64,000 bases of DNA, taken from assembly GCA_030066685.1 (NCBI GenBank), contig JASJBF010000055.1:1-64000 (forward strand), given 5' to 3'. The DNA is from Kiloniellales bacterium (lineage in GTDB: Bacteria; Pseudomonadota; Alphaproteobacteria; Kiloniellales; JAKSBE01). The position numbers and the translations under genes are program-made. The notes below the pieces were generated by a model. It saw only the letters and a list, made by a program, of their open reading frames with translations. It ran no database searches and was not told where the DNA came from. Every line of letters starts with the position of its first letter. Positions within the stretch are counted from its first letter, which is position 1. This document shows positions 4,216-56,742 of this stretch, one piece after another.

Positions 4216-4275
4216 TTTTGGCGGTCCCGGCGACGTGGTACGAAGACTGCCACTCTGGAAGAGGGGCGATCCTCC

Positions 4276-5202
4276 GTGCGCGGTCGTGGCGAAAGGTTTC
4301 TGGCCGAGCTGCCCGAGCCCCGCACGGCCGGGGAGGTGGCTGCGCTCGCCCGCGCCCTGGAGCGCGAGGCCGCACGGCGCTACCTGGCCTTCGCCGAAGA
4401 CGCCCGCGGAATCGCCTCGCCCGAAGTCCCTTCCCTGCTCGGCCGGATTGCCGAGGACCATGCCGAAAGGGCCGGCCGGCTCAGCGGCGAGGAAACCGCT
4501 GCCGTGCGGTTACCCGAGGATTCCTGGCCGCAGCTCTTTGCAGAGGAGGAAACGGCCGTTTGCAATCGAGCGGGCCTGACACCTTACAAGGTGCTCGCCT
4601 TTGCCGTGGCCCTCGCCCAACGCTGCTTCGCGCTCTACAGCTACCTGGCGGCGGCGGCGCAAGATCCGGCCGCGCGCGCCGCTGCCGAGAGGCGTGCGGA
4701 GGAGGAGCTCCTGCGGGCCGCCGGTCTGCGCAGGGAACGCCGGCGTGCCTACCGGGTCGAGCGCCGAAGCCCGGCGGCCGAGCCCTATCCTCCGCCGGCT
4801 CTGGTCGAAACCCTGGCCGACCTGATCGCGGCGGCGCTGGTCGTCGAGGAAGCGCTCGCCCGTCACCTGGCCGAAGCGATGAAGGCGGACCCCCTCTTGT
4901 CTGCCAGTCTCGAGGCGACGCGACGGCAGGTCGAAACGCTGCAACGCGCGCGCGGCGGGGCCGGCGAGCCCGGCGGGGCACTGGCCGAGGCGCTGGCACG
5001 CCTCGCACAAGCCGGTCAGAAAGGCGACACCCCGGCCAAGGACAGAGCCGGCCTGCGACGCCACTTGCTCGCGGCGTGCGAAAGCGCCTTCACATTCTAC
5101 GACGCCGTGGCCAGCGCCGCCGCCTCCGAGGCGGTTCTGCTGAAAGCCCAAGAGCTCTCGCAGGCCGCGCTCGAGCGCGTGAAGCGGCTGGCTACGGCCT
5201 AG
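4276..5202 (+). CDS. Ferritin-like (rubrerythrin-type) helical protein divergent from nosR
   Basis: 308 aa, soluble, no signal peptide, almost entirely alpha-helical and rich in Ala, Glu and Arg. The N-terminal half resembles a rubrerythrin-type four-helix bundle: helix A REAARRYLAF, helix B IAEDHAERAGR (an ExxH-like ligand pair), helix C ALAQRCFALYSYL where the usual Glu is Gln, and helix D AERRAEEELLRAA which lacks the ligand His. The C-terminal half (about 170-308) looks like a second bundle without obvious metal ligands. I cannot name it further; a redox, iron or chaperone role tied to denitrification is inference from its place opposite nosR. The start is GTG at 4276 with GGAAGAGG about 10 nt upstream. 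It is followed by a convergent membrane-protein gene 20 bp away. Confidence 0.6.
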   Translation: MRGRGERFLAELPEPRTAGEVAALARALEREAARRYLAFAEDARGIASPEVPSLLGRIAEDHAERAGRLSGEETAAVRLPEDSWPQLFAEEETAVCNRAGLTPYKVLAFAVALAQRCFALYSYLAAAAQDPAARAAAERRAEEELLRAAGLRRERRRAYRVERRSPAAEPYPPPALVETLADLIAAALVVEEALARHLAEAMKADPLLSASLEATRRQVETLQRARGGAGEPGGALAEALARLAQAGQKGDTPAKDRAGLRRHLLAACESAFTFYDAVASAAASEAVLLKAQELSQAALERVKRLATA

Positions 5203-5222
5203 AGCGAATTTTGTTGCCGGGG

Positions 5223-5729
5223 TCAGGCCGCGCCGGGGATCGGGAGGTAGCAGTTGCGGGCCAGGGTGCGAAGCAGGACGCCGTAGCCGAGGCCAACCAG
5301 CGCCATGACGCCCAGGGCCGGCAGGAAGCCGACCGAGGCCGAGGTCAGGCCGACCAGGCCGCCGGCGATCAGGGAGATCACAAGGGAGACCGGCAGGAAG
5401 ACGTAGGTGCCGGGCAGGGCCTCGCCCTCGAAGGGCAGGGCACGCATGGAGTCGTCGACCGCCTGGTCGAAGTCCTTGCCGGAGAAGGCCTGGAACATGG
5501 CCTCGGCGAGGCCGTTCCAGACGTGGGTCGAGGCCGCGGCGTACCAGCTCGACATCCCGACGGCGAGGCAGAGCGGCAGCATCACCAGGCCGACGAGCTG
5601 CGCGAAGGCCGAGCCGGGAGCCAGGATCTTGGCCAGGACCACGCCCACGCCCATGCCGCCGAGCAGCAGGATTCCCAGAAGCAGCCAGAGCCCGACCGGC
5701 CCCAGTCTGCTGCCCTTGTTGTGCGGCAT
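5223..5729 (-). CDS. Small integral membrane protein, unknown function
   Basis: 168 aa with about four hydrophobic segments (roughly residues 12-34, 40-60, 108-130 and 135-155). The central, less hydrophobic stretch includes WYAAASTHVWNGLAEAM and an acidic patch FDQAVDDSMRALPFEGEALPG. I recognise no family. The ATG at 5729 is preceded by GGGGGAG, a good ribosome site. It converges with the ferritin-like gene and is separated from the next minus-strand operon by a repeat-filled 390 bp gap, so it is probably its own unit. Confidence 0.6.
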   Translation of the reverse strand: MPHNKGSRLGPVGLWLLLGILLLGGMGVGVVLAKILAPGSAFAQLVGLVMLPLCLAVGMSSWYAAASTHVWNGLAEAMFQAFSGKDFDQAVDDSMRALPFEGEALPGTYVFLPVSLVISLIAGGLVGLTSASVGFLPALGVMALVGLGYGVLLRTLARNCYLPIPGAA

Positions 5730-47053: not shown

Positions 47054-48832
47054 TCAGGTCAGGGATTCGGAGTGCGGCGCGGGATGGCGGGGGAGAACCA
47101 GGACGAACTCCGTAAAGCGGTCTTCCTCGCTTTCGACCCCGAGACTGCCTCCGTGCTGATGCACGACCGTGTCATAGCTCAAGGACAAGCCGAGACCGGT
47201 TCCCTCGCCCGGGGGCTTGGTGGTGAAGAAGGGATCGAAGATGTTGTTGGCGACGTCCCCGGGAATTCCGGTGCCGTTGTCCCTCACGCGGATCTCAACC
47301 CTGTCACCGCAGTCCCGGGAGCTTACTCGGAGGACGGGCGCGTAGTCGCCCGAGGTCTCGAGGCGTTGTCGCTGGCGCATGGCGTAGATGCCGTTGCCGA
47401 AGAGGTTCAGCAGGACTCGGCTAATGTCCTGGACGGCTATGGTGATCGAGCCGGCCTTGGGGTCGAAATTGCGCTCCAAGGCGACGTTGCCTGATTGATC
47501 CTGAGCGCGCGCGCCGTGGTAGGCGAGTTTCAGGTTCTCTTCCAGGAAGGTGTTGACGTCGATGTCGCGCCGTTCGCTGCCTTCGTCGCGCGCGTGCTGC
47601 AGCATGTTTTTCACGATGCTGTCGGCCCGCCGGCCCTGTTCATCTATTGTAGCCATGTTCGCGGTCAGTGTGGAAACCAGATCGTCCAGATGGTTTCGCT
47701 GCTCTCCACTGAGCGCCTGGCGGGCCGGTTCGACGGCCTGCCTCAGCTCGTCGATCAGCTCGACGGAGACCTCCGCGAAGTTGTTGATGAAATTGAGCGG
47801 GTTCTTGATCTCGTGCGCGACACCGGCCGTCAACTGTCCGAGGGAGGCCATCTTCTCGGATACCACCAACTGCTGCTGGGTCCTGGTCAGTTTCGCCAGG
47901 GCTGTCTCGGCCTGCTCCTTGGCTTGCCGCAGCTCCGCCTCGGCCTGCTTGAGATGGGTGATGTCGTCACCCATCGGCACTATGAGAGTGACCTCGCCGT
48001 GCTCATCTCTGACAGGCGTCGCGCCAAAGTTGATGATGTGCGCGGTGCCGTCGGTCGCGTGGTGGGTCGCCAAGAATCGCACGCTCTCTCCATCGGCGGC
48101 TCGTTTCAGCGCCTGTTTGAGCTGAGCTTGGAGATCCGGATCATGCGTCCACCAGGGGCAGTCCCAGAAGGGGAGTCCCAACACGTCCTCTTCGCTGGCA
48201 CCGATCATCGCTAGGGCGGCCGCGTTGATCTCGATGAGGGTTCCGTCCGGCTTTAGAAGCCCCTGAAGTTGGGAGCCGGTGTTCAACATAGCCTTCGCGC
48301 GCGCCTCGCTTTCGCGCAGCGCCTCTTCGGCCCGCCTGCGTTTGGCGACCTGCCGCCGCAAACGCCGGTTCCAGGCAAGGATGACCAGGATGACCACCGC
48401 AGCGGCGCCGATTCCTCCGGCCCAGCGCAACACCGAAGCGAGACCCTCGTCTTCTTGCGCGCTTAGGGAGACCGGGCGGACCAAGGTTCTCTTCTCTTCC
48501 TCCCGGGACACCGAGGCGAGGGCGCTATCCGGAATCCGCATCGGTTTCGGCATGCCCTGCGGCACGGAATGGGCCGGGTCGAACGCGCTTGGCAGCCGAT
48601 CGGCTCGTCTCGAGGAGGTGGTGCCTTGCTCCGGGATGACGGGCCGATGGCCGACTCCTTCGGCTGCCATTCGATTGAAGCCGGCGGAAATCCCAAGCTG
48701 GGCGTCGTCGCGCGCGCGCGATTCAGACGGTGTCGGTCCGTCTTGGGCGAAGGCGGACCGAGAGGCCAATACCGCAGAGAGCATCGCGACCAGTCCGATG
48801 GCAGCGATCCAGCCCGCACAGAACAACTTCAT
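47054..48832 (-). CDS. Membrane histidine kinase with PAS domain
   Basis: 592 aa. A signal-type segment (1-30) and a second helix (about 138-158, [15 protein letters not shown]) enclose a short periplasmic region of about 105 residues without a known domain. A coiled-coil leads to a PAS domain (about 180-300, [20 protein letters not shown]), then a second coiled-coil, the phosphoacceptor helix [16 protein letters not shown] and an ATPase domain with [21 protein letters not shown] and [11 protein letters not shown]. The start is ATG 48832, preceded by AAGGGA. It is convergent with the response regulator at 45217, its likely partner. Confidence 0.88.
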
Positions 48833-49313
48833 GGAGTGTCCCTTCCGAGGTGTCCGTCGACATGGTCCATACACGGCTGGCTCTGCAGGCCCGAAAACAG
48901 TGTCCACCCTTTCCTGCCGGAACCGCAAAAAAACCAGGTTCGGCACATCTGCGAAGTTCTAGGCCACGACCGCAGCGTTCGGCGAGACCACGGAGACAAA
49001 CATAGCATCGCCGCGCAGGGCAGCCAGGATTTGGGAGCCCGCGTCCTGGCCAGGTCGCGACGACGGTCACCGCGGGACAGGCGCCGGCAGCGTGAGGCCA
49101 CAGTGCCGAGATCCCGGAACGCGGACTACAGAACCCTCGTCTTGGAGTCCGCCCTTCGCCGAACCCTTGACCGTCAACCTACATCCTTCGCCTAGGGCGC
49201 CGCTTGGTGCTAGCATCGTTCGCAACCGGAAAGGGCGAAGGGAACGCTCCCGGGCTTGGCGGCACGGAATGCCCACCCGGCGCTGAAGGTGATGACAGGG
49301 AGGTTGGCGGGCG
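48833..49313. other. Gene-free divergent region (481 bp)
   Basis: It separates the divergent histidine kinase and NhaC genes and must hold both promoters. A weak stem GAACC...GGTTC around seven A residues is seen near 48920-48945. No gene, repeat or clear promoter pair is supported. Confidence 0.4.
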
Positions 49314-50744
49314 ATGCTCATCAGCAAGGAACAGCGCGAGCCCTATTTCTGGGAAGCGATCGTCTCGCTCGTCTCCCTGGTGATCGGCATCATGCTGTCG
49401 ATCGTGGTCTACGGCACCGATCCGCACATCCCCATGCTGCTCGGCGTCCTGGTGGCGGGGCTGATCGGCACCCGGGCCGGCTACGCCTGGGAGGTCATCC
49501 AAGACGGCATGCTGAAAGGCATCGCCAACTCCCTCCAGGCGATCGTCATCCTGCTGATCATTGGCGTCCTGATCGGGGTCTGGATCGTCTCCGGCGTCGT
49601 GCCGTCCCTGCTGTACTACGGCCTGAAGACCCTCTCGCCGGAGATCTTTCTGCCGGCGGCCCTCATCATCTGCGCGGTCACCTCGCTAGCGACTGGGAGC
49701 TCCTGGGGCACGACGGGCACCATCGGCGTCGCCCTGATGGGCATCGGCGCCGGGCTCGGTTTTCCCCTGCCGCTGGTCGCCGGCGCCGTGCTCTCGGGCG
49801 CCTACTTCGGCGACAAGATGTCGCCGCTGTCCGACACGACCAACCTGGCGCCGGCCATGGCGGGGACCGACATCTACACCCACATCCGGCACATGACCTA
49901 CACCTCGGGCACCGCCTTCGGCCTGACCCTGGTCATCGAGATCGTGCTCAGCTTCTTCTACGGCGGCGGCGAGGAGAACCTCGCTTCGGTCCAGGAGATC
50001 ATCGCGACCCTGGAGCGCGACTTCACCGTCGGGCCCTGGCACATCATCCCGGCGCTCTTGGTGATCGTCTGCGCCTACCGCAAGTACCCGGCGATCCCCG
50101 GTCTGGTCGCCGGCGTGCTCTCGGCGGTCATCCTGGGATTCATCTTCGAAGGCGTCACCTATCCGCAGCTGCTGGAGGTGTCCTACGGCGGCTATGCCAG
50201 CAACACCGGCGTCGAGACCGTCGATTCCCTGCTCAGCAAGGGCGGCTTCACCTCGATGCTCTACGCAATCTCGATCGTGATCTGCGCGATGATGTTCGGC
50301 GGCATCATGGAGGAGACCCACCAGCTGAAAGTCATCGTCGACCGGATCCTGCGCCTGGCCACCTCCAGCTCCTCGCTGATCACATCGACCGTGCTGACCT
50401 GCCTGGGCGCCAACCTGGTGCTCTGCGACCAGTACATGGCGATCGTGATGGGCGGCCGGATGTACGCCCAGGCCTATCGCGACCGGGGCCTGCATGCCAA
50501 GAACCTGTCGCGGGCGGTGGAGGACAGCGCCACGGTGACCGCCAACCTGGTGCCCTGGAACTCCGGCGGCGCCTATCAGGCGGCGACCCTCGGCGTCGCT
50601 ACCCTCGCCTACCTGCCCTTCAACTTCTTCTGCTGGCTATCGCCGGTCGTCACCCTGATCTTCGGCTGGATGGGCTGGACGATCGCGCCCGCGGAGGCGC
50701 CGAAGGCGCAGGAGGCGGCCACCAAGCCCGCACCCGCGGAGTAG
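49314..50744 (+). CDS. nhaC: NhaC-family Na+/H+ antiporter
   Basis: 476 aa with about 11 helices. The NhaC signature LTSLATGSSWGT-like segment (here VTSLATGSSWGTTGTIG) and GAYFGDKMSPLSDTTNLAP are present; the latter is the conserved centre of the family. It normally exchanges sodium for protons, and relatives (MleN) exchange malate and lactate with ions. ATG 49314 follows GGGAGG. It ends 4 bp before a solute-binding protein gene, which is not part of any standard NhaC system. Confidence 0.9.
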   Translation: MLISKEQREPYFWEAIVSLVSLVIGIMLSIVVYGTDPHIPMLLGVLVAGLIGTRAGYAWEVIQDGMLKGIANSLQAIVILLIIGVLIGVWIVSGVVPSLLYYGLKTLSPEIFLPAALIICAVTSLATGSSWGTTGTIGVALMGIGAGLGFPLPLVAGAVLSGAYFGDKMSPLSDTTNLAPAMAGTDIYTHIRHMTYTSGTAFGLTLVIEIVLSFFYGGGEENLASVQEIIATLERDFTVGPWHIIPALLVIVCAYRKYPAIPGLVAGVLSAVILGFIFEGVTYPQLLEVSYGGYASNTGVETVDSLLSKGGFTSMLYAISIVICAMMFGGIMEETHQLKVIVDRILRLATSSSSLITSTVLTCLGANLVLCDQYMAIVMGGRMYAQAYRDRGLHAKNLSRAVEDSATVTANLVPWNSGGAYQAATLGVATLAYLPFNFFCWLSPVVTLIFGWMGWTIAPAEAPKAQEAATKPAPAE

Positions 50745-50748
50745 GACG

Positions 50749-51630
50749 ATGCCGAGACGCTTCACGATCGCGTTCGCGGTCCTGCTGCTGGGCCTCGCGC
50801 CGGCCCTATCGCCGCGCGCCCAGGACAAGGCGCTCGATCCCGACTCGACCCTGGCCGGCGTGCTGGACCGCGGGCGGCTCAGGGTCTGCTTCGAGGCCGG
50901 CTACCTGCCCTTCGAGATGATCGGCACCCGCTCGGGCCTGCGCGAGCGCAGCCTGCGCTCGGCCGACGAGCGCAAGGGCGGCCAGACGACCAGGTTCGGC
51001 GGCTTCGACATCGATCTGGCCCGGGAGATGGCGCGCGAGCTGGGCGTCGACTTCGTGCCGGTCAACACCCGCTGGACCAGCATCATCCCCTCGCTGACCC
51101 TGGGCCGCTGCGACATCATAATCAGCGGCATGTCGGTGACCGAGTGGCGCCGCCGCAAGGTCGACTTCTCCGAGCCCTACATGCAGGTCGGGCAGACGGT
51201 CCTCCTGAACGCCGAGCTGGCGGCACAGGTCACCGCCTACGTCGACCTGAACGATCCCCGCTACAAGGTCGCCTCGAAGCCCGGAACCACCGGCGAGGAC
51301 GCGGTCCGGCGCCTGCTGCCCCAGGCCGACTACCGGCCCTTCGAGTCGGAGCTGGAAGCGGCGGAGGCCGTCGCCGAGGGCAAGGTCGACGCCCTGGTCT
51401 ACGACCGGCCCTTCAACGCCACCTTCCTCGCGATGCGGGGCGGCGAGGGCCTGGTCTTTCTCGACGAGCCCTTTACCGAAGAAGCCATCGCCTTCGCGAT
51501 CCGCAAGGAGGACCCGGACTTCCTGGCCTGGCTGAACGGCTTTCTGGAGAAGGTCCGGGCCGACGGCCGCTACGAGCGGCTGCGCCGCAAGTGGTTCGAA
51601 TCGACCGAGTGGTTCGACCTCTACCGCTGA
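50749..51630 (+). CDS. Periplasmic solute-binding protein, family 3
   Basis: 293 aa. A Sec signal (RFTIAFAVLLLGLAPALSP) is followed by the family 3 pattern LRVCFEAGYLPFEMIG, FGGFDIDLAREMARELGV, SLTLGRCDIIISGMSVTEWR and VDFSEPYM. Such proteins bind amino acids or similar small molecules for ABC importers, or act as receptor domains. No permease or ATPase is nearby; the only partner is NhaC, 4 bp upstream. The protein has a short insertion (GLRERSLRSADERKGGQTTR) absent from typical members. Confidence 0.88.
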   Translation: MPRRFTIAFAVLLLGLAPALSPRAQDKALDPDSTLAGVLDRGRLRVCFEAGYLPFEMIGTRSGLRERSLRSADERKGGQTTRFGGFDIDLAREMARELGVDFVPVNTRWTSIIPSLTLGRCDIIISGMSVTEWRRRKVDFSEPYMQVGQTVLLNAELAAQVTAYVDLNDPRYKVASKPGTTGEDAVRRLLPQADYRPFESELEAAEAVAEGKVDALVYDRPFNATFLAMRGGEGLVFLDEPFTEEAIAFAIRKEDPDFLAWLNGFLEKVRADGRYERLRRKWFESTEWFDLYR

Positions 51631-51642
51631 CCCGCTGGAACC

Positions 51643-54600
51643 CTATTCCGCCGCCGCGACCAAGCCCGCCGCTTCGGCCCGGGGCAGCGCCGGCAGAGGC
51701 TCGTGCTCGAGGGTCACGACTTCCTCAGCCGCCGCGCGACGCCGCCTCCAGGCCCGCGCCATCAGGGCGAAGGCCGGAGGCACGAAGTAGAAGGACACCA
51801 CCGAGGACAGCAGGACCCCGCCGGCGATCGCCATGGCGAAAGGCGGCCAGAAGCCGCCTCCGGCCAGGATCAGCGGCAGGAAGCCGCCGAAGGTGGTGAT
51901 CGTGGTCGAGAAGATGTGCCGGCTCTGGGCCCCGACCGCCTCGGCAATCGCCGCCGTCTCGCCGGCCATGGCGGCCGGGTTCTTCTGCAGCGCGGTCAGA
52001 ATGATGATCGCGGCGTTGATCGAGACGCCGATCGAGCCGATCACCCCGATCACCGCCATGATGCCGAAGGGGTACTGGAAGAGCGCCAGGGCCAGCAGGC
52101 TGAGCCCCATGGAGAGCACCGCGACCACGCCGACGATCGCCGAGAGCCCGAAGGAGTTGAAGGTGAGCACGATGGTCGCGACGGTCAGCGCGACGATGAT
52201 GCCCGCCGCGGCCAGCATGTGGGTCAGGGTCTCGCTGCGGGCGTCGGCGTCGCCGCCGACCTCGAAGTGGTAGCCGTGCGGCAGGACGAGGCCGCTTTCG
52301 GCAATCTTTGCCCGCACCGTCTTCAGCGCCTCTTCCGGCAGGACCTGGCGGTGGGTGAAGCCCTGGATGGTGTTCACCCGCTCGCCGTTGCGCCGGAAGA
52401 TCGGGCTCTCGGCCGGGACCAGGCGCAGCGAGCCCAGCGCGGCCAGCGGCACGCCGGGATAGGCGCCGGCCCGCGCCCGTTCCGCGGCGTCCGGGCCCAG
52501 GAGGTCGGTGCGGCGCAGCGCCTCGAAGGACTCGCGGCCAGCGGCGCCGACCCGCACCCGGACCGGCAGCTCCTCGCTGGCCTCCAGCAGCGAGCCGCCG
52601 AGGGCGCCCTCCAGGGTCGCCTCGAGCTGGCCCGCGATCGCTCCCATGTCGAGGCCCGAAAGCCGAGCCTTCTCCTCGTCGAGGTCGAGCGCCAGCTTCG
52701 GCGCGCCGCCGGTCAGCTGCGTCCGGGCCTGGAGGATTTCCGGCACCGAGACCATGACCGCGCGGACCTCCTCGCCGATCTCCCGCAGCACCTCGACGTC
52801 GGGGCCGAAGACCCGGATCTCGACCGGGGCGCTGACCGGCGGGCCCTGGACCAGGCCGCGCACGATGACCCGCGCCTGGGGGATCGCCCGGTCCAGGTCG
52901 CGCTGGAGCTCGGGCAGGATCCGCTCGGTCGCGGCCGGCGAGACGGTCGTGACCAGGGCCTCGGCGAAGCTCGATTCGGCGTCCTGGTCGGTGGTCATGT
53001 TGTAGTAGAAGGCCGGCGCGCTCTCGCCAATCACCCAGTGCAGCCGGCGGATCTCCGGGTAGCCGCGCAGGACCGCCTCGGCCCGGCGGGCGGCCCGCTC
53101 GGTCTCGGCGATCGCGGTCCCGTCCGGCAGCTTGACCTGGACATAGAACTGGTCGCGGTCGACCCCGGGGAAGAACTGCGCCTTCAGGGTCGGAAAGGCG
53201 CCGAAGCCGATGACCGGCAGGATCAGGGCGCCAAGCATGGCCAGCTTGGGGAAGCGCAGGGCGAGCGCCAGCGAGCGGCCGAAGGCGACACTGAGCCGGG
53301 GCAGCTGCAGCCCGCCGGCCAGGAGGCCGCCGCCCTCGCCGGAGGGCTTCAGGAACCAGCCCGAGAGCGCCGGGGTGATGGTCAGCGCCAGCGCCAGCGA
53401 GGCGAAGAGCATGATGATCACCGAGATCGCGATGGCGCCGACGAAGTCGCCCGGCGGCCCCGGCAGCAGCGCCATGGGCATGAAGGCCAGCGCCGTGGTC
53501 ACGGTCGAGGCGAGCAGCGGCACCGCCAGGCGTCGCACCGCACCGCCGACTGCCTGCAGCCGCGCGGCGCCCCGGTCGAGCTTCTTGCGGATCTCGTCGG
53601 ACATGACGATGCCGGCGTCGACCAGCAGGCCGAGGGCGACGATCAGGCCGGTCAGCGACATCTGGTGGACCGGGATTCCGATCGCCTGCAGCCCGGCGAG
53701 CGACATCAGGCTGGCGAGCGGCAGGATCGAGGCCACGATCAGCGCCGCGCGCCAGCCCAGGGTCACCAGCAGGACGGCCAGCACAAGGCCGGCGCCGATC
53801 AGGAGGTTGATGACGACGAAGGCCAGGCGGTCGGCGGTGTAGCCGCTCTGGTCGAAGAGCAGGCGATGCTCGAGGCCGGCCGGCAGCTCGGCCTCGAAGT
53901 CCTCCAGGATCGCGCGGACCCGGCCCATCCAGACGTCGACCTGGAGGTCGGCTTCCATCTTGGACGCGACGAGAATCGCCGGCACGCCGTCGGCGTAGGC
54001 CAGACTGGCCGCCGGCTCGCGGAAGGCCCTGGCCACGGTCGCGACGTCGGAGACCCGCAGGATCCGTCCGGCCGCGCCCTCGCGCAGCGGCACGTCGCGG
54101 ATCCGCGCCAGCGAGGTGATCTCGCCGGTCACCTCGATCAGCAGGTCCTCCGCCGGACCGCGCAGCTGCCCGGCGCGCACCTTGCTGTCGGCCCGGGCGA
54201 TGGCGGCCGACACCTCCGCCACGGTCAATCCGAGCGAGGCCAGCTTGCGCGGATCGATGGTGACCAGGATCTCCTCGTCCCGGGCGCCGTAGAGCTGAAC
54301 CAGCTTGGTCCCCGAGAGCGTCCGCAGCCGGTCCTGGAGGATCTCGGCGTAGCGCCGGAGGATCGCCGGGTTGGCCGTCGTCCCGGGCCGGGCCGAGATC
54401 GCGCTGATCGCCGAGAAGGCGCCGGTGCGGTCGTCGTCGAAGCTCGGCTCGGGCACCCCGGCCGGGAAGTTGGCCGCGGCGTCGGCGATCGCGTCGCGCA
54501 CCTCGGACCAGGTCTGCTCGATCTCGGCCTTCGAGAGGCTCCAGGCGAGCTCGACCCGGACGAAGGAGAGCCCGCTCCGCGAGGTCGACTCGATCTCCTT

Positions 54601-54825
54601 GATCTCGGGGATCTTCTTCAGCTCGTCCTCGACCTTCTCGGTGACCAGGGCCTCGACCCGCGCCGGGTCGGCGCCCGGGTAGGGCGTGACGACGGTCGCG
54701 AAGAGGTTGGAGATGGTCGGGTCCTCCTGGCGCCCGACCGTGAGCAGGGCCGAGGAGCCCGCGGCCAGGATCATCAGGACGGCCAGGGCGACGATCCGCC
54801 GGTTACGGAAGAACAGCGTCTCCAC
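51643..54825 (-). CDS. RND efflux pump, inner-membrane transporter
   Basis: 1060 aa, twelve helices, two large periplasmic loops: the standard layout of RND proton antiporters. It begins TLFFRNRRIVALAVLMILAA, with TVGRQEDPTISNLFA soon after, which marks the HAE-type group that favours hydrophobic drugs. TM4 reads LLVDAGIVMSDEI where AcrB has the VDDAIV pattern. The start is GTG at 54825, 5 bp after the stop of the adaptor gene. The outer-membrane partner is not encoded here. A divergent TetR gene and operator array lie upstream of the pair. Confidence 0.92.
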   Translation of the reverse strand: METLFFRNRRIVALAVLMILAAGSSALLTVGRQEDPTISNLFATVVTPYPGADPARVEALVTEKVEDELKKIPEIKEIESTSRSGLSFVRVELAWSLSKAEIEQTWSEVRDAIADAAANFPAGVPEPSFDDDRTGAFSAISAISARPGTTANPAILRRYAEILQDRLRTLSGTKLVQLYGARDEEILVTIDPRKLASLGLTVAEVSAAIARADSKVRAGQLRGPAEDLLIEVTGEITSLARIRDVPLREGAAGRILRVSDVATVARAFREPAASLAYADGVPAILVASKMEADLQVDVWMGRVRAILEDFEAELPAGLEHRLLFDQSGYTADRLAFVVINLLIGAGLVLAVLLVTLGWRAALIVASILPLASLMSLAGLQAIGIPVHQMSLTGLIVALGLLVDAGIVMSDEIRKKLDRGAARLQAVGGAVRRLAVPLLASTVTTALAFMPMALLPGPPGDFVGAIAISVIIMLFASLALALTITPALSGWFLKPSGEGGGLLAGGLQLPRLSVAFGRSLALALRFPKLAMLGALILPVIGFGAFPTLKAQFFPGVDRDQFYVQVKLPDGTAIAETERAARRAEAVLRGYPEIRRLHWVIGESAPAFYYNMTTDQDAESSFAEALVTTVSPAATERILPELQRDLDRAIPQARVIVRGLVQGPPVSAPVEIRVFGPDVEVLREIGEEVRAVMVSVPEILQARTQLTGGAPKLALDLDEEKARLSGLDMGAIAGQLEATLEGALGGSLLEASEELPVRVRVGAAGRESFEALRRTDLLGPDAAERARAGAYPGVPLAALGSLRLVPAESPIFRRNGERVNTIQGFTHRQVLPEEALKTVRAKIAESGLVLPHGYHFEVGGDADARSETLTHMLAAAGIIVALTVATIVLTFNSFGLSAIVGVVAVLSMGLSLLALALFQYPFGIMAVIGVIGSIGVSINAAIIILTALQKNPAAMAGETAAIAEAVGAQSRHIFSTTITTFGGFLPLILAGGGFWPPFAMAIAGGVLLSSVVSFYFVPPAFALMARAWRRRRAAAEEVVTLEHEPLPALPRAEAAGLVAAAE

Positions 54826-54830
54826 GGCGC

Positions 54831-55985
54831 CTACTCCCCGGCCGCCAGCGCGACCGCCTGGCCCGGGATGATCCGGTTGGTCCCGCCGAGCACGACCAGG
54901 GTGCCCGCGCCGATGGTCCCGCGCACGAAGGCGCGGCCGCCGTCCAGGTGCAGGATCTCCACCGCTTCCCGGGCGACCGTGGGCCTGCCGTCGCGCTCGA
55001 CCACCGTCAGCACCGACCAGAGCCCCTTGCGGCCCTCGCTCAGCGCGGTCAGCGGCAGCCAGGCGCCGGCGCTCGGGACCCGGCGCGCGAGCAGCAGCTC
55101 GACGACCTCGCCGAAGGGCACCGCCTCGCCGCCGATCACCTCGAGCAGGACGGTGACCGTGCGGGTGCCGGTCTGGAGGTCGGGCCGCTTGGCGATCAGG
55201 CGGCCCTCCAGAGCGCGCCCGTCCGCATCCAGGGGGTAGAGCCGGCCGGTCTCAAGTCCCTTCGCCGCCTCGACCGAGACTCCGACCCGCAGCTGCCGGG
55301 CGCCGGCCTCCAGGAGCTCGACCACCGGCGTGCCGGCCGCGACCACCGCGCCCTCGTCGACCGAGCGGGCGGCGATGCGGCCGGCGTAGGGTGCCGTCAG
55401 GACCGACTTGCCGATGTCGACCTCGACCGAGGCGATGGCGGCGTCGATCCGCTCGATCGCCGCGGCGATCTCGGCCAGGCCGAAGCGGGCCTCGTCATGG
55501 CGCTGCTCGGTCTGCCAGCCCTTGGTGGCCAGGGCTTCCTGGCGCTCCAGGGTCGCCTCGGCCAGGGCTTCCTGGGCCTGCAGCTCGCGCCGCTGGGCGC
55601 GCAGCCGGTCCCGTTCGGCCTCGAGCTTGGCCGTGTCCAGGCGGGCGACGACCTCGCCCCGCGCCACCCGGTCGCCTTCCTCGAAGAGCACCGCCAGGAC
55701 CAGGCCGGCGCGTTCGAAGGCGAGCCGGGTCTCCCGGGCCGGCTCCAGGCGGCCGGCGAAGCGCTCGGTGACCCGGTAGCCGTCGTCCAGGCGGATCGGC
55801 CGCGCCTCGACCCTGACCGGGGGGTTGGCCGCCACCGCCGGCTCGGCCGCCGCCCGCAGGTGCAGGGCGGCGATGCCCCCGCCCATGAGGCCGAGGAAGC
55901 CGAGGCCGGTCAGCCCCAGCAGGACCCCCCGCCTGAGCGCCCCTGCGCCTCGCTCCGGTCTTGCGGCGTTTCCCGGCCCGGTCAT
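54831..55985 (-). CDS. RND efflux periplasmic adaptor (membrane-fusion protein)
   Basis: 384 aa. An N-terminal helix (about 19-42) anchors it; the rest is the HlyD/AcrA plan: barrel-lipoyl strands (RFAGRLEPARETRLAFERAG), an alpha-hairpin (LRAQRRELQAQEALAEATLE) and the second lipoyl half (LTAPYAGRIAARSVDEGAVV). It bridges the pump and an outer-membrane channel. ATG 55985 is the first gene of the minus-strand pump operon; upstream lies a three-site operator. Confidence 0.9.
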   Translation of the reverse strand: MTGPGNAARPERGAGALRRGVLLGLTGLGFLGLMGGGIAALHLRAAAEPAVAANPPVRVEARPIRLDDGYRVTERFAGRLEPARETRLAFERAGLVLAVLFEEGDRVARGEVVARLDTAKLEAERDRLRAQRRELQAQEALAEATLERQEALATKGWQTEQRHDEARFGLAEIAAAIERIDAAIASVEVDIGKSVLTAPYAGRIAARSVDEGAVVAAGTPVVELLEAGARQLRVGVSVEAAKGLETGRLYPLDADGRALEGRLIAKRPDLQTGTRTVTVLLEVIGGEAVPFGEVVELLLARRVPSAGAWLPLTALSEGRKGLWSVLTVVERDGRPTVAREAVEILHLDGGRAFVRGTIGAGTLVVLGGTNRIIPGQAVALAAGE

Positions 55986-56017: not shown

Positions 56018-56079
56018 GTTACCTTCGCTAACATATGTTAGTCTCGTTAACTTGGCAAGGGCAAGTTAGCCAAGCTAAC
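56018..56079. promoter_or_regulatory. TetR operator array: three GTTA-N7-TAAC sites
   Basis: Sites at 56018-56032, 56037-56051 and 56065-56079 all fit GTTA-N7-TAAC; the third, GTTAGC-CAA-GCTAAC, is perfectly palindromic. CTAACATATGTTAG (56028-56041) is a second perfect palindrome across the first two sites. Centres are 19 and 28 bp apart. They lie in the 124 bp between the divergent pump and TetR genes, the usual place for self-regulating repression. Confidence 0.75.
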
Positions 56080-56109
56080 ATTCTTTCTACCGGCGAAACG
56101 GGGATTTGG

Positions 56110-56742
56110 ATGAGGGCATCCGGCCAAACCGGAGCGGCGGCGGCACGCCAGAAGGCCAGGTACCACCATGGCGACCTGCGCGAGGCCCTGATCGCCGCGG
56201 CCTACCAGCTGGTCAGCGAGGCCGGTGCGGACGGCTTCTCGCTGGCCGACGCCTGCCGCCGCGCCGGGGTCTCGACCGCGGCGCCCTACCGCCACTTCAA
56301 GGACCGGGAGGAGCTGCTGGCCGAGGTCACGGCGCGCGGCTTCGGCGCTCTGACCGTCGACACCAAGGCCGCCGTCGAGGCCGAGGACGAGGGCAGCCTG
56401 GCCTCCATCGTCGCCATGGGCCGGGCCTACGTCGCCTTCGCGGCGGCGCAGCCCGGCCTGTTCCGTCTGATGTTCGGCCAGCCGCACCTGATGGGCGAGT
56501 TCCCGAAGGTCTCCGAGACCGGCGGCGAATGCTTCGGCTACGTGATCGCGCAGGTCCGGAAATACTGCGTCGCCCACGGGGTCGAGCGGGACGCCAACGA
56601 GATCGCGATCAAGCTCTGGACCTTCGTGCACGGCGCGTCGTCGCTGCTGATCGACGGCAAGTACGAGAAGGTGACGCCCGGGCTCGACGTGACCGAGATG
56701 ATCGTCGGCGCCACCCCTCTGCTGGTCGGCCACCGGGACTGA
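56110..56742 (+). CDS. TetR-family transcriptional repressor of the RND pump
   Basis: 210 aa. The N-terminal DNA-binding part is YHHGDLREALIAAAYQLV, then FSLADACRRAGVSTAAPYRH, a clear TetR helix-turn-helix. The C-terminal ligand domain includes LFRLMFGQPHL and WTFVHGASSLLIDG, seen in the WHG-type subgroup. I chose ATG 56110, just before the Ala-rich lead-in; a frame open from 56035 would run across the operators and is unlikely. It is divergent from the pump genes it probably controls. Confidence 0.88.
   Translation: MRASGQTGAAAARQKARYHHGDLREALIAAAYQLVSEAGADGFSLADACRRAGVSTAAPYRHFKDREELLAEVTARGFGALTVDTKAAVEAEDEGSLASIVAMGRAYVAFAAAQPGLFRLMFGQPHLMGEFPKVSETGGECFGYVIAQVRKYCVAHGVERDANEIAIKLWTFVHGASSLLIDGKYEKVTPGLDVTEMIVGATPLLVGHRD

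Follow-up and report, generated by a model that had tools for sequence, protein, structure and literature searches.

Why should the gene of an NhaC-family transporter stand directly before that of a periplasmic solute-binding protein? The question is raised by a 64,000-nucleotide stretch of DNA from a Kiloniellales bacterium (GenBank assembly GCA_030066685.1, contig JASJBF010000055.1, positions 1 to 64,000 of the forward strand; hereafter the window). It carries, both complete and both on the + strand, nhaC (49314..50744, 476 aa; PF03553, TIGR00931), encoding a secondary transporter of the IT superfamily, and a gene for a family-3 solute-binding protein (50749..51630, 293 aa; PF00497). Four base pairs separate the stop codon of the first from the ATG of the second; this spacing and the coordinates are exactly those of an original prediction made from the sequence, which had proposed a binding-protein-assisted exchanger of ions and organic solutes. 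Here we show that the pair is real, conserved, and specialised. On balance, sequence comparison and predicted models lead us to favour the view that NhaC and its binding protein may constitute a further class of binding-protein-linked secondary transporter, an assisted exchanger of cationic amino acids. The earlier proposal keeps its outline, with the pair conserved and no orphan importer found, and exchanges its cargo for one of the arginine, ornithine, or lysine type.

The window NhaC scores 226.3 bits against PF03553 (cut-off 23) and 470.9 bits against TIGR00931 (cut-off 370), and its partner 113.1 bits against PF00497 (cut-off 26.4); the partner belongs to family 3 by its binding-protein fold as well as by its profile. 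Relatives of NhaC were drawn from a scan of 84,980 species genomes, of which the best 80 of 591 confirmed stretches served as loci, and repeat loci of one genome were counted once (G569 was treated as the same genome as G289). With each genome so counted, the pair was found in 17, six alphaproteobacterial and 11 desulfobacterial, with NhaC always first, both genes on the same strand, and gaps of -29 to 185 bp when start codons are chosen mechanically. Since order and strand are kept in each of the 17 genomes at these gaps, the adjacency is not due to chance. Conservation, the lack of which had been named as grounds for dropping the idea, therefore holds, and the pair shows what is expected of binding-protein-dependent secondary transporters, a conserved binding-protein gene beside a secondary-transporter gene.

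The pair is rare but conserved where it is found. Among the best 80 loci, the binding protein lies directly downstream of NhaC in at least seven (L026, L027, L028, L029, L030, L032, and L040), a lower bound because several loci have little downstream DNA and L033 ends with nhaC itself. In a scan of 71 of the 75 open reading frames (ORFs) picked from these loci, family-3 binding domains were the commonest family directly after nhaC, in at least six cases (one of them within a kinase); the copies at L027 and L032 were missed by the ORF picker. Within the window's class, two of 289 sampled genomes hold the binding protein at E <= 1e-45, the window's and G184, both beside NhaC; within its order, four of 61 genomes do, all next to NhaC, with one copy split across two contig ends. 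Among 398 sampled Pseudomonadota genomes the sole pair is that of the window, and the four further homologs at E <= 1e-60 are all linked to ATP-binding cassette (ABC) systems. In the class to which G292 belongs (Desulfobacteria, judging by locus titles), 102 of 241 genomes hold 113 homologous binding-protein places at E <= 1e-45, and 11 of the 113 adjoin NhaC. There, 16 genomes have an NhaC match at E <= 1e-110: 12 carry a close NhaC (61-68% identity), directly followed by the binding protein in 11, and the other four have distant ones (43-44%). A plasmid collection yielded 154 NhaC records and two binding-protein records, one from a Vibrio tritonius plasmid, where by its annotation it is not beside NhaC, and the other from Aeromonas.

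What sets the partnered binding proteins apart is an extra stretch of 19-20 residues that follows the first strand and precedes the next conserved motif; in the window it is residues 63-81 (50935..50991, +). Its net charge, measured in 15 copies, ranges from +2 to +7. It is present in all 17 NhaC-linked copies, that is, in 11/11 desulfobacterial places and all six alphaproteobacterial ones. The 101 readable copies that lie away from NhaC in the Desulfobacteria sample all lack it (102 places, the copy at L267 being cut), in a survey covering every place of the class sample. It is also absent from L182, one of the ABC-linked Pseudomonadota homologs, in the part of its alignment that was read. 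Of the 102 places not beside NhaC, 97 adjoin a permease matching a His/Glu/Gln/Arg-type query and five are unassigned. The extra insertion noticed in the original prediction is thus real, and every readable copy fits the same rule, an insert where NhaC is the neighbour and none elsewhere, which is the behaviour expected of a part specific to one partner.

When the insert columns and N-terminal columns are left out of the tree, 15 NhaC-linked copies still stand together on one side of a branch with 100/100 support (L117, which has an internal stop, is omitted from the tree and, with L130 and L139, from the underlying alignment A1). Of the 11 desulfobacterial genomes with the pair, nine (G292, G293, G302, G377, G380, G456, G463, G470, and G472) hold both types of binding protein on separate contigs. 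The second type adjoins an ABC permease, so that the NhaC-linked copy cannot be read as just the ABC binding protein of that genome. Because the insert occurs in all NhaC-linked copies and in no other readable ones of the class sample, the binding protein probably originated in an amino-acid ABC system and was then dedicated to NhaC. The insert probably helps it to recognise NhaC, and we propose it as a candidate docking element. As a separate observation, one locus (L192/L128; G412, C131, 46251-48223) carries two tandem copies of the ABC-linked form.

The predicted structure of NhaC places it in a fold group that includes the TRAP transporters, which use binding proteins. An AlphaFold2 model (predicted local distance difference test, pLDDT, 87.9), for which the alignment comprised 47 of the 80 loci and the window (L063 and L093 have a stop codon within the part matched; the rest were dropped to keep the list short), has an INDY/TRAP-like fold. 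It matches the best NaS1, NaDC3, and INDY chains with Z-scores of 21-24, ArsB with 21, and the TRAP membrane subunits SiaQM and IseQM with 16-20 at 10-13% identity. By these NaS1, INDY, and TRAP matches, the predicted model has the elevator-type fold associated with binding-protein-dependent secondary transporters. Its best match is PDB entry 9a59, an integrative model of MleN with MetQ (Foldseek E 2.8e-33, Z 51.4, 38% identity); searching PDB chain sequences with an NhaC profile, unlike the fold search, found nothing.

In the explanation that we favour, both genes would encode one uptake system. The binding protein would capture a cationic amino acid in the periplasm, arginine most likely, or lysine or ornithine, and would hand it to NhaC, which in turn would carry it through the membrane, either in counter-exchange with a second cationic amino acid (ornithine, for example) or by way of a H+ or Na+ gradient. 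Descended from an amino-acid ABC binding protein, the partner would have gained the net-positive insert that probably aids recognition of NhaC. The ligand, the hand-over, docking by the insert, the direction of recruitment, and the coupling ion are the parts of this scheme that we infer.

With moderate confidence we propose a cationic amino acid as the cargo, in the first place arginine, otherwise lysine or ornithine, because the nearest solved structure, a characterised member of the NhaC family, and some gene neighbourhoods point that way. The closest solved relative of the binding protein is 3k4u from Wolinella, described as "complexed with lysine" (Z 32.7, root-mean-square deviation 1.2 over 234 residues, 43% identity), followed by AncCDT-1. 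Three residues are the same in all 37 aligned copies: Glu49 (50893..50895), proposed to contact the side chain of a cationic amino acid, Arg134 (51148..51150), proposed to contact the alpha-carboxylate, and Asp219 (51403..51405), proposed to contact the alpha-amino group; we take these positions to be ligand contacts in the lysine/arginine/ornithine-binding protein. As for neighbourhoods, the order at L027 (NhaC 85% identical) is NhaC, binding protein, arginase, and class-III aminotransferase. Arginase, ornithine cyclodeaminase, and nhaC stand together, with no binding protein, at Paracoccus L034 and on three Thioclava plasmids, and Roseovarius L039, whose NhaC has no binding-protein partner, has a gene of the ornithine cyclodeaminase family nearby. 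By tblastn across the best 80 of 591 NhaC loci, arginase was found in at least two (L027, L034), cyclodeaminase in at least two (L034, L039), and relatives of the aminotransferase in at least five, four of them at 30-37% identity. The window genome has five arginase-family matches, all elsewhere than at the pair. Among characterised proteins, the NhaC-type ArcD of Halobacterium has been shown to be an arginine/ornithine antiporter (PMC5300872, PMC7193027), and LysW, of the NhaC superfamily, has been linked to lysine riboswitches (PMC5584792). The organic-acid cargo of MleN relatives that the original prediction had brought in gives way to this evidence at the same moderate confidence; it was not our first choice, as no clear organic-acid pathway was recognised beside the pair loci read and arginase or ornithine genes lie beside several relatives.

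Several observations weigh against this reading of the pair, the first of them from NhaC proteins that lack the partner. In a sister NhaC clade of 12 rows (62-68% identical), no adjacent copy of the binding protein was found in the available flanks (L033 lies at a contig end), and whole-genome searches of seven of these genomes found none at E <= 1e-30; in the desulfobacterial genome G356, Usp and NhaC are kept with no remnant of the binding protein. Since the sister clade and G356 do without it, an NhaC of this kind can probably function unaided, so that the earlier statement that NhaC works without a binding protein stands for this clade; dependence on the partner may be partial, and strict dependence is doubtful. 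The insert, moreover, is on the tree a single evolutionary event and not many, which speaks for one dedicated lineage and not for repeated evolution, and it is poorly modelled (pLDDT ~56-69). With regard to cargo, the window NhaC reaches 410 bits on the ArcD model NF052307, below the cut-off of 650; tblastn placed arginase, ornithine cyclodeaminase, or aminotransferase genes near the pair in one of 14 pair genomes, that of L027; no arginine gene lies beside the window pair; and at L028 a gene of the mandelate-racemase/enolase family (4266-5333) lies farther downstream of the pair.

The history of the partnership can be followed on an NhaC tree of 36 rows, from which the split gene L122 is omitted. 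Its 14 rows linked to the binding protein need three changes, at least two of them forced by well-supported branches, and the simplest reading would be a single gain with two losses, one of them in G356 and the other in the Rhodobacterales/gammaproteobacterial clade. No significant remnant of a binding protein was found beside NhaC in relatives that lack it, with the exception of L039, where a 30%-identical binding protein lies 3 kb upstream beside an ABC-ATPase-like ORF. An oligopeptide ABC operon that includes a binding protein of its own starts ~2 kb downstream of nhaC in Thioclava L172 and L175; it was taken as unrelated.

These relatives give weight to a different account, in which NhaC is a stand-alone exchanger of the arginine/ornithine type and the co-transcribed binding protein feeds an ABC permease encoded elsewhere. 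The nearest relatives of the binding protein are indeed ABC-linked, as at the 97 of 102 class places beside a His/Glu/Gln/Arg-type permease, the sister-clade NhaC occurs without it, and at L169 (2-5280) and L168 (8571-10985) translations reveal amino-acid-type ABC ORFs, one ATPase-like and two permease-like, a few genes upstream of the pair. The window genome itself (G000; 5.96 Mb in 73 contigs, with a single NhaC match at E <= 1e-3) argues otherwise: it has eight matches to TIGR01726, a family of amino-acid ABC permeases, and each of the seven above cut-off has another PF00497 match no more than 3 kb away, so that there is no ABC importer of the expected family without a binding protein of its own. 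An orphan importer of this kind was the second finding that would have spoken against the original prediction, and none of the matching family was found in this genome. The companion remark that no ABC permease lies nearby holds for TIGR01726, absent from contig C55 (64,347 bases, nearly all of which is the window), with other ABC permease families not searched. On this evidence the window binding-protein gene is not linked to an amino-acid ABC importer, and no permease match was found in the short flanks of 15 NhaC-linked loci. Together with the insert, which sets the NhaC-linked copies apart with no exception among readable ones, and a gene order kept across two phyla, this makes the ABC-feeding account possible but unlikely.

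A periplasmic sensor or regulator, gating NhaC or signalling ligand level to a kinase with no hand-over of substrate, would agree with the Maledivibacter halophilus locus L042 (5526-7571), where a histidine kinase fused to a family-3 binding domain, which may sense the transported solute, directly follows nhaC. It would also agree with the Usp-family gene before nhaC at nine desulfobacterial pair loci, and with a sensor-kinase-like ORF that in translation lies divergently upstream of nhaC in the window (47054-48946, -). Yet the ORF lists of the remaining pair loci showed no conserved kinase next to NhaC and its partner, and the candidate ligand-site residues are kept as in ABC-linked relatives; we regard this role as distinctly improbable. 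It seems still less probable that NhaC is an ordinary Na+/H+ antiporter and its downstream neighbour functionally unrelated. The model named "Na+/H+ antiporter NhaC", TIGR00931, does recognise the window protein at 470.9 bits, but its name says little on cargo, because the demonstrated arginine/ornithine antiporter of Halobacterium scores 365.9 bits on it, just under the cut-off of 370 (and 798.8 on NF052307, cut-off 650); the conserved adjacency and the arginine-catabolism neighbours of some relatives also argue against it. An enzyme of the cyclohexadienyl dehydratase type, suggested by AncCDT-1 and several dehydratases among the nearest solved structures, is hardly credible, given that the top two matches are 3k4u, with its bound lysine, and AncCDT-1, whose title calls it an ancestral amino acid-binding protein, that present-day dehydratases are 24-27% identical to the binding protein, and that the candidate amino-acid contacts are conserved.

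Returning to the assisted exchanger, its closest parallel is TAXI-GltS of Bordetella pertussis (PMC12344293). There, too, a secondary amino-acid transporter that as a rule operates unaided has acquired a binding protein, the genes are adjacent or overlapping, the fold is of elevator type by model, and an extra part of the binding protein is proposed as a bridge. The families differ (TAXI and ESS/GltS there, family 3 and NhaC here), as does the cargo (glutamate there, a probable cationic amino acid here), and gene fusions are known there, whereas none was noticed for the NhaC pair, for which no systematic search was made. According to the same source, TRAP and TTT systems were previously the only secondary transporters known with a soluble binding protein; it proposes that an elevator mechanism may be what permits binding-protein use and calls for further classes as a test. 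If the reading holds, the NhaC pair would be such a class, with a fold that is INDY/TRAP-like by model. It would also amount to a natural experiment, since close relatives exist both with the partner and without it and the 19-residue insert has been seen in partnered copies alone, and "Na+/H+ antiporter NhaC" annotations in these genomes would hide amino-acid importers.

TRAP transporters such as SiaPQM and IseQM share ion-driven transport with a periplasmic binding protein, and the NhaC model resembles their membrane part. The window pair differs in that its genes belong to PF00497 and PF03553, not to a DctP or TAXI protein with TRAP membrane subunits, and no Q-subunit-like ORF was seen beside it. 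The MleN-MetQ model 9a59 likewise places an NhaC-like protein with a binding protein, on the basis of cross-linking data; MetQ, which we take to be the ABC methionine lipoprotein of B. subtilis, differs from the binding protein of the pair. As an analogy, this entry is only a hint that proteins of the NhaC type and binding proteins can come close to each other, and its probable sources, PMC11383924 (linked by title and date) and PMC10090944, name neither MleN nor MetQ in their available parts. Halobacterium ArcD (NF052307) resembles the proposed system as an NhaC-family exchanger of cationic amino acids; it differs in being 37% identical to the window NhaC and in having no binding-protein gene among the 10 features of 12 kb at its locus in NC_002608. 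LysW is another NhaC-superfamily protein tied to an amino acid, lysine, with no binding protein mentioned in the accessible part of its description (PMC5584792), and it differs in its riboswitch link, as no Rfam match (lysine or other riboswitch) was found in window 48900-51700 at E <= 1. None of the papers listed by a full-text literature search describes an NhaC-binding-protein pair; most subscription journals and all preprints were outside its scope, so this is no proof of absence. The claim of a new arrangement for the NhaC family is accordingly to be read with two reservations, the existence of 9a59 and the precedent of TAXI-GltS for the general idea.

Within the window pair, a GGAG ribosome-binding-like motif for the binding protein, read from the sequence, lies inside the end of nhaC (50738..50741, +) and suggests translational coupling of the two genes. 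The binding protein begins with a hydrophobic N-terminus, a probable Sec signal peptide of about residues 1-24 (50749..50820, +), its cleavage site being inferred; no lipobox cysteine is present, and residues 1-25 have pLDDT <50 in the model. A promoter and terminator scan at the pair was uninformative.

At the desulfobacterial loci the pair is part of a Usp-NhaC-binding-protein cassette. A Usp-family gene stands just upstream of nhaC in nine of the 11 pairs (L028, L029, L030, L032, L040, L164, L167, L168, and L169), one gene having been checked by Pfam (PF00582) and the others being tblastn matches of it. The remaining two have nhaC broken off at a contig end; for G456, whose gene is split, the upstream half lies on another contig. 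G356 (L162), which has no binding protein, shows a partial Usp-family match upstream of nhaC. TeaD, a protein of Usp type, reportedly regulates a TRAP transporter.

Further genes were seen at single pair loci. A DctP-type, TRAP-binding-protein-like gene follows the pair in G184 (L107, 295-1338), a second binding-protein-like gene follows the NhaC-linked one in G456 (L166, 3508-4614), and a gene of the octopine-dehydrogenase family accompanies the ABC ORFs at L169. In the window, translations indicate RND-type efflux pump and membrane-fusion-protein-like ORFs convergent to the pair (51643-55985, -), with a TetR-like ORF near them (56035-56742).

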